Assembly (NCBI RefSeq): GCF_029815055.1
Contig: NZ_JAPPWA010000002.1
Coordinates: 930,001-994,000, forward strand
Origin: Ignatzschineria sp. RMDPL8A
GTDB taxonomy: Bacteria > Pseudomonadota > Gammaproteobacteria > Cardiobacteriales > Wohlfahrtiimonadaceae
Direction: 5' to 3'
Length of the DNA: 64,000 nt
Below the pieces are notes generated by a model. That model did not search any database. It was not told the DNA's origin and was given only the letters and a program-made list of their open reading frames with translations. How positions within the stretch are numbered: position 1 is the first letter of the stretch; each line of letters opens with the position of its first letter. Positions 15,130 through 54,724 of the stretch are shown piece after piece. The position numbers were made by a program, and so were the translations under genes.

Positions 15130-15885
15130 ATGAAGTTCAATTTCAAAGCATTTGGAATTCATTTCCTCTTTAGTATTCTGCTGGTTTCACTCTTTGCGCT
15201 GGTGATTTTAACGCTCTGGTATCCGAGCATTTGGTCAAAAGCACTGGGCGGGTATGATCTTTTTATTAAGATTGTGATTATCGACCTGATCGTCGGCCCA
15301 CTTTGTATGGGAATTGTTTATAAATCTCATAAAAGCCTTAAAGAGCGCATTGTCGATGCGACGACGATTTTAGCCTTTCAGCTCGCCTTTATGGGGTATG
15401 GGCTATGGGTACTCTATGAGTCGCGCCCGGTATTTATCGTGTTTGCGCAAGATCGCTATGATGTCTATGTTGCCAATGAAATTGAGCCTGAAATGCTTGG
15501 GGATCAAGCGCCGTTTGATCGCCTATCATTGACAGGGCCTGTCTATGGCGCGGTGGATTTAGCATCGATCTCAAGTGATACGCTCTTTGATTTGACAGTA
15601 TCGGGGCTTGATGTGAGTAATGTTCCTGAATATTACACCCCGATTGAAGAGTTTAAAGAGACTATTTCTGCACGAAAAGTGAGCTATCAAGAGATGGATG
15701 ACACGCTTTTAAAAAGTGCGCTAACAGCGTATATTGATAAGAATAAGTTGGATGAGAGAGCGGTCTACTGGCTCCCGGTAAAACATCGTTTTGGCTTTGT
15801 CACGGCGGTGCTTGTGGGAGATGAGTGGATTCCCCATGGTTATATCGATTTAGATTCGTATGAGACGAATCATTCAAGGGATTAA
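15130..15885 (+). CDS. TfpZ-like type IV pilin accessory protein
   Basis: The 251-residue protein has about three to four N-terminal membrane segments (roughly 8-30, 44-64, 75-97) and the family blocks HFLFSILLVSLFALVILTLWYP, DLIVGPLCMGIVYK and ESRPVFIVFAQDRYDV, followed by a soluble domain from about residue 110. TfpZ/FimB-type proteins help certain type IV pilins to be made or assembled and usually lie beside a pilin gene. Here no pilin is adjacent; instead thrC follows within 20 nt, suggesting co-transcription. An AAAGGA site precedes the ATG. Family placement is from pattern memory. Confidence 0.72.
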   Translation: MKFNFKAFGIHFLFSILLVSLFALVILTLWYPSIWSKALGGYDLFIKIVIIDLIVGPLCMGIVYKSHKSLKERIVDATTILAFQLAFMGYGLWVLYESRPVFIVFAQDRYDVYVANEIEPEMLGDQAPFDRLSLTGPVYGAVDLASISSDTLFDLTVSGLDVSNVPEYYTPIEEFKETISARKVSYQEMDDTLLKSALTAYIDKNKLDERAVYWLPVKHRFGFVTAVLVGDEWIPHGYIDLDSYETNHSRD

Positions 15886-37090: not shown

Positions 37091-37149
37091 ATCAGTGCCT
37101 TATATGAATGAGGTATTGGCGAATTTATGTTTATTGGGAGATTGTGATC

Positions 37150-37338
37150 ATGTTGATACTCACAAGGAAGGTTGGCGAGAAACTCATCATTGACGATAAT
37201 ATTGAAGTGGTAATCCTTGAGATTAAAGGAAACCAAATTCGTGTCGGTATTGAAGCACCGAAGGAGATTTCAATTTTTCGTGAAGAGGTGTATGAGAAGA
37301 TTCAAGCCGAGCAAGTAATCAACAGTACGGAAGCTTAA
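37150..37338 (+). CDS. csrA: Carbon storage regulator CsrA
   Basis: The 62-residue RNA-binding protein starts [17 protein letters not shown] and contains [22 protein letters not shown] with the conserved Arg and the second RNA contact strand. CsrA binds GGA motifs in mRNA leaders and controls carbon flow, biofilm and motility; in bacteria with type IV pili it often affects twitching. Start chosen at 37150, with GGGAG 9 nt upstream; a longer in-frame ATG at 37108 lacks homology. Confidence 0.96.
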
Positions 37339-49139: not shown

Positions 49140-49574
49140 ATGAAACGTTTAGCATTAGTAGCCATGTTAGGCATGGGATTAGCAGGATTTGTTCACGCAG
49201 AAGTGGACGCAGACCAAGTCACCTACTATCGTCAAAGCATTTTTGGCGTGGTTAGCGGTCAAATGGGCGTTCTTTCAGGCATGGCAAAAGGCGATATCGC
49301 ATTTGACGCAGATAAAGCGAAACTTGCGGCAGAGCGCTTAAATATGATGGCAATCGCTTCATCAGAAACCTTCATCGACGGCACCTATGAGAGCAGTAAT
49401 GTAAAAACTGCAATCAACCGAGATCGTGCTGATTTCGATAAAAAAATGACGGCGTTCCAAACCGAAGCAGCAGCGATGGTTGACGCAGCGGCGGATCTTA
49501 AAACATTACGTCCACAACTTGGTAAACTTGGTGGCACATGTAAATCATGCCACGACGTCTACAAAGCAGACTAA
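49140..49574 (+). CDS. Cytochrome c' (class II c-type cytochrome)
   Basis: The 144-residue protein has a signal peptide (about 1-20, ending VHA-EV), a four-helix bundle pattern (YYRQSIFGVVSGQMGVL start) and a C-terminal haem site C-K-S-C-H near residue 136-140, the layout of cytochrome c'. Such proteins bind NO and are tied to nitrosative stress or denitrification. AAGGAG precedes the ATG; a terminator follows. Confidence 0.9.
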   Translation: MKRLALVAMLGMGLAGFVHAEVDADQVTYYRQSIFGVVSGQMGVLSGMAKGDIAFDADKAKLAAERLNMMAIASSETFIDGTYESSNVKTAINRDRADFDKKMTAFQTEAAAMVDAAADLKTLRPQLGKLGGTCKSCHDVYKAD

Positions 49575-49656
49575 TCTCGATATTTCACGATATTTAGGTT
49601 GCAGTTAGACTAAATTTATCGCACAATCGCGATAATCGTAAAAGAATAAAGCTTTT

Positions 49657-49694
49657 AAAACGATTAATTCTATAATGGAGTTAGTCGTTTTTTT
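49657..49694 (+). terminator. Intrinsic terminator of the cytochrome c' gene
   Basis: AAAACGATTAA (49657-49667) pairs with TTAGTCGTTTT (49681-49691, one G:U), then T-tract to 49694. Confidence 0.85.
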
Positions 49695-49715
49695 GTCACG
49701 TGAGAGGAAATAATC

Positions 49716-50795
49716 ATGAAGAAATTATTAAGCGCGGCACTTTTGACCGCTCTTGTGGGTACGGCAGGAGTTTCGGCAAAGGAAGTTCGAGTCTATAACT
49801 GGACCGATTATATCGACCCCGAATTGATCGATGAATTTACTGCACAAACCGGCATCAAAGTGATCTATGACACCTTCGATAGCAACGAGGTGTTATTGGC
49901 TAAAACCTTAACCGGAAACTCAGGGTATGACATCGTTGTTCCTTCGGAATATACGGTGAAATATATGATTCAAGCAAACCGTTTGCATAAGATTGACCCC
50001 GCAAAACTCTCGAATTATAAAAATATCTGGCCTTACGTGCACGATAAACTAGAAGAGCTCGAAGGGGTGAATGAATATTCCGTGCCCTATATGTGGGGAA
50101 CGACGGGCATTGCCTACGATGAGAATAAAATTAACGCATTAGTGCCCGATGCGCCGACCGATTCGCTCGAGCTGATGTTTAATCCCAAATATGCGGAAAA
50201 ATTAGCGAGCTGCGGGATCTATATGGTGGATTCTCCCAGTGAAACTTTCCCGATTGTATTGCGCTATTTGGGGCTTCCACCTGAATCAACCGATGATAAA
50301 GATCTTGCGAAGGTGGAAGAGGCCTTTAAGCAAATTCGCCCCTACATTAAAAAATTCCACTCATCGGAATATATCAATGCGCTCGCAAATGGGGATGCCT
50401 GTCTGGCGCTCGGCTGGTCGGGGGATATCTATCTTGCGAAAGCGCGTGCAGAAGAGTTTAACCCGGATATTAAGATTGAGTATCGCATTCCGAAAGAGGG
50501 CTCGCTTCTTTGGTTTGACCAATTTGCGATCTTAAACGATGCGAAAAATGTGGATGAAGCCTATGCCTTTATCGATTTCTTGCTCGATGCGAAAGTGAAC
50601 GCGCGTGCAGCGGATTACGTTGAGTATTCAACCTCTGTGGAAGCGGCGTTTCCCTTTGTGAAACCGCATCTTTATAACGACCCAAATCTCTATCCACCCG
50701 AAGAGATTCGCTCAAACTTAAACGTGAAGCAGCCCTACACGCAGCGCGAGCAGAAAAAATTGATGAAAATTTGGCTTAAAATTAAAAATAATTAA
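49716..50795 (+). CDS. Periplasmic polyamine-binding protein (PotF/PotD family)
   Basis: The 359-residue solute-binding protein has a signal peptide (about 1-21, VSA-KE) and the polyamine-binding protein start VRVYNWTDYIDPELIDEFTAQTG, with DIVVPSEYTVKYM and MWGTTGIAYDENKI. The pattern is nearer PotF (putrescine) than PotD, but specificity is a guess. No ATP-binding or permease genes are adjacent, so it must use a transporter encoded elsewhere or act as a sensor. Confidence 0.88.
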   Translation: MKKLLSAALLTALVGTAGVSAKEVRVYNWTDYIDPELIDEFTAQTGIKVIYDTFDSNEVLLAKTLTGNSGYDIVVPSEYTVKYMIQANRLHKIDPAKLSNYKNIWPYVHDKLEELEGVNEYSVPYMWGTTGIAYDENKINALVPDAPTDSLELMFNPKYAEKLASCGIYMVDSPSETFPIVLRYLGLPPESTDDKDLAKVEEAFKQIRPYIKKFHSSEYINALANGDACLALGWSGDIYLAKARAEEFNPDIKIEYRIPKEGSLLWFDQFAILNDAKNVDEAYAFIDFLLDAKVNARAADYVEYSTSVEAAFPFVKPHLYNDPNLYPPEEIRSNLNVKQPYTQREQKKLMKIWLKIKNN

Positions 50796-51206: not shown

Positions 51207-51578
51207 ATGGAAGATAAACATACAGAGTCAAACAATGCCCGTCGGCAAGCGTTTATATATACGCTCCTCAATCGAGCAGATTCGATGGGAGATCATGCCG
51301 TTCGAATTCGTTTTGAAATAGAGCGTGGTACGGAGTCGACGCTCGCCGGTGCGCTGACAGATTATTACATCTGCTCTAAACCGAAAGATTACCTCCAACG
51401 TCTCGACTTTTTAAAAGAATCACTTAATGTGTTAGGGGACGATTGGTTGCTTCTCTTTTACGATAATTTAGAAGAAGAGTTTAGTTCTGCAACCGTTTTA
51501 CCCTATAACCAATGGAGTATCTTTACTGAAGATGTGCAAGGTCATTTTAATTTCATTGACAATCCCTATGCATCATAA
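51207..51578 (+). CDS. Unrecognised 123-residue protein, first gene of the GTPase operon
   Basis: I do not recognise a family. The protein is soluble and acidic, with no signal peptide or membrane helix. It is mainly helical by appearance: RRQAFIYTLLNRADSMGDHAVRIR, then PKDYLQRLDFLKESLNVLG, then DDWLLLFYDNLEEEF; the C-terminus is aromatic (YNQWSIFTEDVQGHFNFIDNP). A GGAA sequence about 8 nt upstream is a weak ribosome site. It ends 15 nt before the next gene, so it is part of the operon. A regulatory or adaptor role to the GTPase is inference from position. Confidence 0.75.
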   Translation: MEDKHTESNNARRQAFIYTLLNRADSMGDHAVRIRFEIERGTESTLAGALTDYYICSKPKDYLQRLDFLKESLNVLGDDWLLLFYDNLEEEFSSATVLPYNQWSIFTEDVQGHFNFIDNPYAS

Positions 51579-51593
51579 GGCTGAGATATAGTT

Positions 51594-53078
51594 ATGAGTA
51601 ATGCAGTGAGAGTTAAGTTAGTAGGGGTCGATTCGCGGACAGAGGCGGGGATTAAGCTCGTCTTGTCACGTAACCAGCAACAAAAATTTATTATCGATCA
51701 GAGCGCATCACTTCTCTTAATTGATGGGGACTCGGTTGATGGGATTCGTTATATTCGTGACGAATCGATGGAATATGCGGTCATTATGACAGTGATGGTG
51801 AGTCGTTATAACGAATATTCTCATGTAATCCAAAAGCCGCTTAAAAGCGAAGATCTCGTCAAGACATTATTAGATGTTTCCAAAGAATTAGCCAATCATG
51901 AAATGGGCGCGGGTGAAGCGAAAGCGCAAGGCAATCCCTTTGCGAAATTTCACAGCGACCAATATTTAGCCTCATTACAGCAAGCTCATAAAGCGGGAAA
52001 TGACCGTGAAAAAGCAGAGGAAGAAGCGCGCCTAAAAGCGGAAGCGGAAGCCAAAGCAAAAGCCGAAAAAGAGGCCGCCGAGCGTGCTGCGATTGAAGCT
52101 GAGAAAGCCCGAGCCGAAAAAGAAGCAGCGGAACGTGATGCAGAAGAGCGTGTAGCTAAAGCCACAGCTGAGGCTGCTCGTAAGGCGGAAGCTGAAGCAA
52201 AAGTTGCTGCGGAAAAAGCGGAACAAGCAAAGCGTGACCTCGCTACAGCAAGTTTTACCCCTGCTGACACCGGACCTGCTAAAGAAGAGGCGGATGCGGA
52301 AAAAGAGAAAGGGCGTGATAAATTTTCACCGGGTGCGGCGCTTTATGGTGTACGACTCTATCCATTTGAATATAAACAAGCAGCAGACAGTAAGAAAATC
52401 TGTGGTCAATCACAAGATGTGAGCCTTGATCATCTCCCGCTCCAAACATTTTTTAATGTGACCGATTATTTAGGTCATTACGTTGCGGAAGCAAAATCAA
52501 TTGCGCTTGAAGCGATGCGTCCTGTGGTGCTCACAATTGATAATGACTATATGCTGATTCATCCAAAAGATCAGTCTATTTACACCAGTCTTCCGGAAAC
52601 CAGTTTATATGCAATTTCATTGATGCCTCTACGTGATGCCCCTGAAATTGACATCTTAGAAACATCTCAGGCACAAGCGGAATATGTCCAAAAGTATGAT
52701 GTGGTCTATTATTCCAATCTTGATTATCTGATTGCTGTACTAGCGCTCTGGTCATCCCGTGGTCGTCTTCCTGAAGGCACAAGCGTTGATGAGCCCTATC
52801 AGCTCTTGCAACCTGATCACAAGATCTTTACGCAACTGAAACTTCCCGAGATTAATCGAGTGAAAGAGGCTTGGGCAAATGCACCAATGACCTTAAAAGA
52901 GCTCGTAGGGCAGTTGCTTCTTCCACAGCGATATATCTTTTCATTTTATATTGTGGCGGCGATCTTAGGGCTTTTTAACGAGCGTGATCGCACCGCTGAG
53001 CTCGAAGAAGAAGCTGCGCGTGAGCAAAATAAGCAAGATGACCTGAACATGTTATTAGAAGAATTGAAACAATTGTAG
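51594..53078 (+). CDS. Receiver-like / coiled-coil protein of the GTPase operon
   Basis: The 494-residue protein has three parts. Residues about 5-100 look like a shortened or degenerate receiver domain: LVGVD (D13), LLLID (D44 at the phospho-acceptor position) and QKPLKSEDLVKTL (K81-P82, the conserved Lys-Pro). Residues about 136-222 form an Ala/Glu/Lys/Arg-rich coiled coil. Residues about 250-494 form a soluble C-terminal module ending in MTLKELVGQLLLPQRYIFSFYIVAAILGLF, which resembles the winged-helix-like end of DUF4388/PATAN-type proteins, and then a short acidic coiled tail. No family is certain. The GTPase gene starts 17 nt later. Confidence 0.8.
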   Translation: MSNAVRVKLVGVDSRTEAGIKLVLSRNQQQKFIIDQSASLLLIDGDSVDGIRYIRDESMEYAVIMTVMVSRYNEYSHVIQKPLKSEDLVKTLLDVSKELANHEMGAGEAKAQGNPFAKFHSDQYLASLQQAHKAGNDREKAEEEARLKAEAEAKAKAEKEAAERAAIEAEKARAEKEAAERDAEERVAKATAEAARKAEAEAKVAAEKAEQAKRDLATASFTPADTGPAKEEADAEKEKGRDKFSPGAALYGVRLYPFEYKQAADSKKICGQSQDVSLDHLPLQTFFNVTDYLGHYVAEAKSIALEAMRPVVLTIDNDYMLIHPKDQSIYTSLPETSLYAISLMPLRDAPEIDILETSQAQAEYVQKYDVVYYSNLDYLIAVLALWSSRGRLPEGTSVDEPYQLLQPDHKIFTQLKLPEINRVKEAWANAPMTLKELVGQLLLPQRYIFSFYIVAAILGLFNERDRTAELEEEAAREQNKQDDLNMLLEELKQL

Positions 53079-53095
53079 ATTGTAGGATTGGGTAG

Positions 53096-53620
53096 ATGAA
53101 GCAATATAAGATTTTATTTGTCGGACCGGTAGCCTCGGGAAAAACAGAGGCTGTTAAAACATTATGTGGCGATAATGTGTTAACTACAGAGGTAAAGCCT
53201 ACAGACGATGTTAAAAATATTAAACATGAAACTACGGTAGCGATGGATTATGGTACGCTTCCGTTTGGTAGTGAAAAAAAGCTTCATATCTATGGAGCGC
53301 CAGGGCAAGGGCGATTTGAATTTATGCTCGATATCCTTTCCGAAGGATGCCTTGGGGTTATTATTCTTGTAGATCTTTCAACCGTCACATCAGAAGAGCA
53401 TCTCTACAAAATTGTAGGCGAGTATACACGCTTTATCGAACGTATGCCATTTATGGTAGGATTTACCCACGTCGATTTAGTGGACCGAGCGGTCGCAGAA
53501 CAGTATTGCGGAGCGCTCAATAATCGCTATGGTGGGCAGGATTTAACACGTTGTGTGGATCCTCGGAGTCGTGCTGAGGTGGCAAGACTGGTTGAAGAGA
53601 TCGTATTACGGGTTAAGTAA
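53096..53620 (+). CDS. Small Ras-like GTPase of the MglA/COG2229 type
   Basis: The 174-residue protein has the P-loop GPVASGKT (residues 10-17), a switch I threonine (HETTVAMDYG, T46/T47), the G3 region YGAPGQGRF (67-73) and a G4-like THVD (124-127) instead of NKxD. The usual G3 aspartate is replaced (GAPGQ); a non-Asp residue before PGQ is also known in MglA, which takes Arg and Asn from a dimeric roadblock partner context. It is the size of a bare G domain. Neighbours are two roadblock-type proteins, the standard partners of such GTPases. Role in polarity, motility or surface control is inferred. Confidence 0.88.
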   Translation: MKQYKILFVGPVASGKTEAVKTLCGDNVLTTEVKPTDDVKNIKHETTVAMDYGTLPFGSEKKLHIYGAPGQGRFEFMLDILSEGCLGVIILVDLSTVTSEEHLYKIVGEYTRFIERMPFMVGFTHVDLVDRAVAEQYCGALNNRYGGQDLTRCVDPRSRAEVARLVEEIVLRVK

Positions 53621-53623
53621 GAT

Positions 53624-54259
53624 ATGGAAAAAAAGGAAGCTCAATATTTAACGGTGACCCCGCGAGGCGCACTGTTTGCAACAAGTACAACAGAAGAGAG
53701 TAAGACCAAAGAGGTCTTAATGAAACTTCTGAATATGAAAGTGAGTCCTAAATTAACTCAAGAATCGCTGTTAGAACTTACCGAGCTTCATGATGAAAAG
53801 CTCGCGGAAGCGGTTCTATATCAGCTTCAGGTGCGCCACTTTGTGCAAGCAGAGAGTGAGCCAGTTGGAGTTCCTGATATCAATATTCATAAAGAATTAC
53901 CCACTCTTTTACGTCTTCTTTCAAGTTCAGGGAAGACACTTTTAATCGACAGTAACGGTTTTCAAATTAGTAGTACAGGATTTGCTCCTGAAGATATTGA
54001 ACAGTTAGCGGTCGTGAGTAGTGAGTTCAGTACAATTTTCTCAACGTACAAAAACTTCTTATCGCAATCGTTAAACAAGGAGTATGCTGCAACGGCCGTA
54101 GTTAATAACCAAGGAATTAGTAAACTTGGGTTTGTTATGTTAGATGTCTCGGGCGTAGTATTTACGCTCACGATTGGGGATACTCCCTTTTTAAATCAAC
54201 GAACATTTAGAGACATCGTTTGGCTTTTAACCTACCGTTATGGCAATTCTGTAGTATAA
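53624..54259 (+). CDS. Winged-helix plus divergent roadblock-like protein
   Basis: The 211-residue protein starts 3 nt after the GTPase. Residues about 20-85 look helical with a winged-helix feel (LTQESLLELTELHDEKLAEAVLYQLQVRHFV). Residues about 90-205 have the roadblock pattern: a helix (ELPTLLRLLSSS), a strand with LLIDSNGFQISSTGF, a helix (PEDIEQLAVVSSEFSTIFS), then strands (GISKLGFVMLDVSGVVFTLTIG) and a final helix. The similarity is by shape rather than by a signature. It may be a second, heteromeric partner of the GTPase. Confidence 0.65.
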   Translation: MEKKEAQYLTVTPRGALFATSTTEESKTKEVLMKLLNMKVSPKLTQESLLELTELHDEKLAEAVLYQLQVRHFVQAESEPVGVPDINIHKELPTLLRLLSSSGKTLLIDSNGFQISSTGFAPEDIEQLAVVSSEFSTIFSTYKNFLSQSLNKEYAATAVVNNQGISKLGFVMLDVSGVVFTLTIGDTPFLNQRTFRDIVWLLTYRYGNSVV

Positions 54260-54303
54260 TAATTTTTGAGGGTAAAATTTACATAAATTAATATGAGGTT
54301 TGT

Positions 54304-54666
54304 ATGCGCGAAGAAGTATTAACATCAATTTTAAGTGAATTGAACGGAACATCAGCGGATGTTGAAGCATCGGCTATTCTGTCAACGGATGGTTTAATTA
54401 TTAGTTCACTTTTACCATCGAATGTGGATGAGGACCACGTAGCAGCGATGAGTGCTGCGATGCTCTCACTTGGTATCCGCACATCTGAAGAGCTTGTTCG
54501 TGGTGAACTCGAGCAGGTATTGGTAAAAGGATCGCAAGGATATGTGATTTTGACCTCGGCCGGCCCAGATGCAGTACTCTCTGTATTGGCTAAATCAAAT
54601 GCACGTTTAGGTCTAATCTTCCTTGATATCAAACGAGCATCAGAAGCGATTAAACCTCTATTATAA
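54304..54666 (+). CDS. Roadblock/LC7 domain protein (MglB-like)
   Basis: The 120-residue protein is a single roadblock/LC7 domain: ILSELNGTSADVEASAILSTDGLIISSLLP, then a long helix DEDHVAAMSAAMLSLGIRTSEELV, then QVLVKGSQGYVILTSAGPDAVLSVLAKSNARLGLIFLDIKRA. In MglB this fold is the GTPase-activating partner of MglA; other bacterial roadblock proteins regulate or scaffold small GTPases. GAGG lies 5 nt upstream. It is the last gene of the operon, 44 nt after the preceding one, and is followed by a terminator. Confidence 0.9.
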   Translation: MREEVLTSILSELNGTSADVEASAILSTDGLIISSLLPSNVDEDHVAAMSAAMLSLGIRTSEELVRGELEQVLVKGSQGYVILTSAGPDAVLSVLAKSNARLGLIFLDIKRASEAIKPLL

Positions 54667-54698
54667 TTGGGATTTTTCTGAAGTCCTGAGAGTTTTTG

Positions 54699-54724
54699 AA
54701 AGCCTGCGATTTGCAGGCTTTTTT
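54699..54724 (+). terminator. Intrinsic terminator of the GTPase/roadblock operon
   Basis: AAAGCCTGC (54699-54707) pairs perfectly with GCAGGCTTT (54713-54721), loop of five, then T-tract. Confidence 0.92.

Follow-up and report, generated by a model that had tools for sequence, protein, structure and literature searches.

A Group 3 MglA-type GTPase/roadblock operon in Ignatzschineria: a candidate sensor-fed switch for type IVa pili

The Group 3 MglA systems of beta- and gammaproteobacteria were defined in 2015 (Wuichet & Søgaard-Andersen, PMC4316618), and the available part of that account assigns to them a protein with a receiver-like domain, a variable linker and a winged helix, together with MglA and one or two MglB proteins. 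It also gives their signatures: a GTPGQ G3 motif, a G4 motif that lacks Lys, a DAR G5 motif, and an Asp-Gly pair in MglB. These systems are widespread but poorly characterized, with almost no function assigned. The only functional lead that we found is the Group 3 mgl locus of Snodgrassella, which, in the accessible text of PMC11112851, has one mglA, two coupled mglB genes and one orphan mglB of 121 amino acids (aa). A point mutation in the orphan altered soft-agar spreading (read as pilus motility) and gut competition. Here we describe a five-gene operon of Group 3 type in a 64,000-nucleotide (nt) stretch (the window) of Ignatzschineria sp. RMDPL8A, a gammaproteobacterium of the Wohlfahrtiimonas family with a 2.18-Mb genome. 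We consider it somewhat probable that the operon encodes a sensor-fed Group 3 MglA-type roadblock/GTPase switch with one protein, B, as scaffold, and that this switch acts on type IVa pili.

The five genes are called A, B, G, W and R in order (Table 1), and the last four appear to fit a Group 3 MglA system. B, judged from its model and alignment, combines a receiver-like N-terminus, a variable linker and a winged-helix C-terminus and is encoded beside the mglA homologue G; two MglB-type roadblock proteins, W and R, are coupled within four genes. G (G1 motif GPVASGKT) has Thr (TT) in G2 instead of the Group 1 Arg finger, a G4 motif without Lys (THVD) and the conserved Arg in G5 (DPR), and the Asp-Gly pair is found as D29-G30 of R, invariant across the R alignment. 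The G3 motif differs, being GAPGQ in the window and AAPGQ in Wohlfahrtiimonas, whereas most other relatives have GTPGQ. Because four of the five genes match the Group 3 definition, the system is not undescribed, as an earlier, sequence-only reading of this DNA had supposed. What is new is the place of gene A as a module component, a set of soluble sensors, a GTPase-less form and a C-terminal tail on B, none of which is described in the available part of PMC4316618 or elsewhere in the literature searched; the first three had also escaped the sequence-only reading.

The operon itself is as that reading portrayed it: five open reading frames (ORFs) on the plus strand from 51207 to 54666, with intergenic gaps of 15, 17, 3 and 44 nt, closed by an 11-pair hairpin. 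The grouping is not due to chance, because Wohlfahrtiimonas (loci L042-L045) has the same five genes in the same order and neighborhood, and because the GTPase and roadblock genes are found together in 22/24 genomes (Fisher 2e-18). The order A-B-(G)-W-R is common to relatives across the beta- and gammaproteobacteria. Both the predicted co-occurrence in related genomes and the view of the operon as a conserved, vertically kept lineage trait are thereby borne out. A mobile cassette is ruled out by the identical neighbors in Wohlfahrtiimonas, which were recognized by sequence as ubiB, cytochrome c', a binding protein, trxB, pgk and rng.

The proposal of a GTPase switch with two roadblock partners likewise stands. 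G matches Pfam Ras (2e-6) and ATP_bind_1 (5e-9) as well as MglA in the PDB (4e-4); ubiquitin matches in the PDB were discarded, since they contain no significant stretch. R matches Robl_LC7 (PF03259, 7e-17), is the sole Pfam-detectable roadblock in the window's genome, and is the best-conserved component, with 60-83% identity to relatives. W has no match in Pfam, and its profile could not be matched directly to the roadblock profile of R with hhalign (probability 0.2%), so its assignment rests on an AlphaFold2 model (predicted local distance difference test score 90.8) and on Foldseek. The model has a helical or winged N-terminal part followed by a roadblock fold at about residues 88-207, and its Foldseek matches include MglB and LAMTOR (probability 1.0); there is also a profile match to the roadblock cvnB5 (6e-4).

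Two features of the Wohlfahrtiimonas GTPases may be mentioned here. Their G4 motif reads TQTE, TQSE or TRSE (L042-L045) where the window has THVD, and the loss of Asp makes guanine specificity questionable. In Wohlfahrtiimonas populi, B and G are separated by an additional ORF of 110 aa (L044:5424-5756); its match to residues 1-36 of the GTPase marks it as a partial duplication.

The candidate inputs of the switch are small soluble proteins, predicted to sense oxygen or a ligand, that are encoded beside R. Named loci of many families have such genes after R: 48 encode an Aer-type PAS protein there and 50 a PhnD-like binding protein, and inspection by eye found no signal peptide at the N-terminal starts of the PhnD-like proteins. 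A protoglobin lies between W and R in 8 loci, and a CZB protein is encoded in 8 loci. The window's genome has two PAS genes (G000:C2:417.9-419.0 kb; 61% and 51% identity), one of whose products has a match of 1e-32 to the structure of the Aer PAS, and one PhnD-like gene (G000:C1:62.06 kb; 32% identity). Across 96 genomes, a close PAS homologue is present in 17/24 GTPase-bearing genomes versus 2/72 others (p 2e-11, a value inflated by relatedness). In G026, a genome of the same order as the window's, R homologues with 38 and 43% identity are part of an R-PAS-R-PhnD run located away from the GTPase. The sole relevant paper found on a link between PAS or aerotaxis proteins and roadblocks concerns a globin (PMC4476040). 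A large PilY1-like protein, recognized by eye, is encoded two genes before the PhnD-like gene of the window's genome (L138:2298-5822; G000:C1 ~57-61 kb).

A candidate output of the switch is suggested by the distribution of PilM, a marker for type IVa pili. PilM is found in 52/55 GTPase-bearing versus 158/221 other Gammaproteobacteria genomes (p=1.5e-4); the three GTPase-bearing genomes without it are fragmented assemblies and have PilM-bearing relatives in the same families. PilM is also present in each of the 12 named module genomes tested, GTPase-less ones among them. In the sister genus g4 (9 genomes), the GTPase, roadblock, PAS and PhnD-like genes and PilM are all missing together. The pilus link raised in the sequence-only reading is plausible in light of this co-distribution. 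The tfpZ-like and csrA-like genes on which that reading drew are present as ORFs, by eye, at 15130-15885 and 37108-37338 of the window.

On sequence grounds, gene A is a component of the module, because a profile built solely from the window's family retrieves first, among other bacteria, the immediate upstream neighbor of B: all of the first 26 matches listed outside the family are such ORFs (E 4e-8 to 5e-3, among 4853 ORFs searched). Nearly all relatives have, directly upstream of B, a longer homologue with a tetratricopeptide repeat (TPR) tail, and the short and long forms align in hhalign at 96% (E 4e-9). Long members are 150-250 aa, except one of 518 aa, whose N-terminus is predicted by eye to hold a membrane segment; their TPR matches (E 2e-5 to 2e-4) fall under curated cut-offs. 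SgmX, the Myxococcus pilus effector of MglA, is a TPR protein according to the accessible part of PMC7519303, and by analogy A might be its equivalent. The TPRs have a second possible meaning, namely a system that positions polarity or envelope components without being specific to pili, with the GTPase as marker of a pole and A as a polar landmark-like adaptor. The MglA paradigm favors this idea, as does a similarity of the long A forms to the FimV/HubP C-terminus, but that similarity is weak (0.01-0.05, under cut-off) and the co-loss with PilM in sister genus g4 favors a pilus output; we regard the idea as distinctly improbable.

In agreement with the earlier suggestion of a receiver-like scaffold protein, the AlphaFold2 model of B has a receiver fold (residues 1-104; best Foldseek E 0.005), a coiled coil or long helix (115-214), an alpha/beta plus winged-helix-like domain (246-460) and a terminal helix (466-493). 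One B homologue also matches Response_reg (0.014) and RssB (5e-4). In every GTPase-bearing locus, B continues beyond the winged-helix motif into a short helix-like terminal tail, typically RGLLxRLLxxL (36-54 residues in the 42 loci parsed by motif scan, the remainder judged by eye), whereas in 22 GTPase-less loci B stops 7-9 residues after the motif, with further ones judged by eye. Because the tail is kept in GTPase-bearing loci and gone in GTPase-less Oceanospirillaceae loci with an intact C terminus, it points to a putative contact between the C-terminal helix of B and the GTPase. Precedents exist in Myxococcus, where the C-terminal helix of MglB binds MglA (PMC6785124) and that of RomR binds MglC (PMC12719032). 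Charge complementarity between the B tail and helix 5 of the GTPase was tried as a further indication and set aside; its sign is reversed in the window's family versus the others and rho is -0.04 within the rest, leaving one contrast only.

The architecture of B and W also bears on a proposal in the available part of PMC4316618, according to which the GTPase switch would regulate genes, with winged-helix parts (here those of B and W) binding to DNA. The receiver and winged-helix-like folds of our models and the fold prediction published there agree with it. Nonetheless, W joins its winged-helix part to a roadblock, the tail of B goes with the GTPase, and the module varies together with a pilus gene; taken together, these points make a transcription regulator unlikely. 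Moreover, PATAN-type winged helices encoded near MglB are considered to mediate interactions.

The order A-B-W-R without G occurs in 28 loci, one of which has a broken B. All but one form a single Oceanospirillaceae clade (Shimodaira-Hasegawa-like approximate likelihood ratio test 99) of Amphritea, Marinobacterium, Nitrincola, Pontibacterium and Motiliproteus, in which genes 1, 2, 4 and 5 and the sensors are kept; the remaining locus is from a Halothiobacillus metagenome-assembled genome. A GTPase of the G family is absent genome-wide in 6/9 GTPase-less genomes searched and encoded elsewhere in the genome in 3/9. The existence of the GTPase-less form shows that one lineage's module can do without the GTPase. 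One might then argue that a roadblock-sensor hub is the real core, with the GTPase an optional add-on and the main output independent of GTP. The 27 loci of this clade, the six genomes lacking any homologue, the R of GTPase-less loci (still ~70% identical to the window's R) and the GTPase-free run in G026 are all consistent with this argument. However, G is nearly always present outside the Oceanospirillaceae clade, and where G is missing R may work with a different, divergent GTPase, so we consider it rather unlikely. A broader version is offered as a tentative possibility: the ancestral core would be a sensor-coupled platform, A-B-W-R, that controls type IVa pili and whose inputs (PAS, PhnD-like, globin or CZB proteins) can be exchanged, and the GTPase would be a removable output or timer that attaches through the C-terminal helix of B; one marine lineage would run the platform without it.

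The model that we prefer, the sensor-fed GTPase switch acting on type IVa pili, can be put as follows. Soluble cytoplasmic sensors (two Aer-type PAS proteins and a PhnD-like protein here, globin or CZB proteins elsewhere) would signal to the conserved roadblock R, which together with the second roadblock W would form a GTPase-activating protein (GAP) or regulatory platform for G. B, with its degenerate receiver, coiled coil and winged-helix-like domain, would be the scaffold joining the parts, and its C-terminal helix would dock G as the MglB helix does in Myxococcus. GTP-bound G would then adjust type IVa pilus activity, probably via effectors such as the TPR-family protein A. The computed parts, folds, conserved order, sensor association, PilM co-distribution and joint loss of G and the B helix are the material of this model; from them we infer physical contacts, a complex, GAP or guanine-nucleotide exchange factor activities, ligands, a direction of control and the pilus output.

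Several observations weigh against the model. The PAS and PhnD-like genes of the window's genome are encoded away from the operon. The joint loss of the B tail and G is essentially one event in one clade, and the Halothiobacillus genome (L118) lacks G yet retains the B tail. Most pilus-bearing genomes have no module, and the PilM association, when counted by family in a smaller sample, is not significant (p=0.25).

With these reservations, a concrete circuit is now proposed for a Group 3 system, specifying sensors, roadblock, GTPase contact and output. Two points are the most surprising and most testable, namely that the sensors next to R can be exchanged and that the module survives without its GTPase, and the lineage that dropped the GTPase while keeping roadblocks and sensors amounts to a natural experiment. 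If the model is true, bacterial roadblock proteins are themselves sensory hubs, beyond their part in GTPase regulation.

Table 1. Features of the operon (window coordinates)
Feature	Position	Strand	Description
Gene A, 123 aa	51207..51578	+	short form of a family with longer TPR-tailed members
Gene B, 494 aa	51594..53078	+	receiver-like, coiled coil, winged-helix-like, C-terminal helix
B C-terminal helix (residues 466-493 + preceding linker)	52989..53075	+	proposed GTPase-binding element
Gene G, 174 aa	53096..53620	+	Group 3 MglA-type small GTPase (by sequence)
Gene W, 211 aa	53624..54259	+	winged-helix-like N-terminal part + divergent roadblock
Gene R, 120 aa	54304..54666	+	canonical roadblock
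Intrinsic-terminator-like hairpin	54698..54722	+	11-pair stem, loop 3, T-rich tail; closes operon

Directly upstream of the operon (49140-50795) lie the genes for cytochrome c' and a polyamine-type binding protein, whose position is kept in Wohlfahrtiimonas. The only RNA element found in the window is a tRNA-Phe. A variant arrangement occurs in genome G062, in which one B gene lies between two GTPase genes (G-B-G-R; L034:3713-5882).

Among described systems, the Snodgrassella locus is of the same group, and the accessible account of it (PMC11112851) does not discuss sensors or gene A. The Group 1 module of Myxococcus (MglA, MglB, RomR and SgmX) shares a Ras-like GTPase, a roadblock GAP, a receiver-linker-helix protein and a TPR effector controlling pili, but its genes are scattered and its G2 and G3 motifs are different: the G2 Arg and TVPGQ G3 of Group 1 MglA (Myxococcus/Thermus type) are missing from G. 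An acidic C-terminal helix is carried by MglB (PMC6785124) or RomR (PMC12719032) in Myxococcus; here it is B that has a helix. Among the Rup GTPases, Group 1 Rup lacks the catalytic G3 Gln that G retains (GAPGQ). The actinobacterial conservons (Cvn, Group 2) are likewise GTPase-roadblock operons of four to five genes with an odd G4 motif; however, G has THVD rather than NxFD, and no conservon-type histidine kinase (CvnA) was seen among the window ORFs at 47-58 kb. Finally, HGbRL of Methylacidiphilum (PMC4476040) provides a precedent for coupling a globin sensor to a roadblock, although it is a fusion involving another type of globin, whereas the protoglobin and roadblock genes of Thiodiazotropha and relatives are separate.

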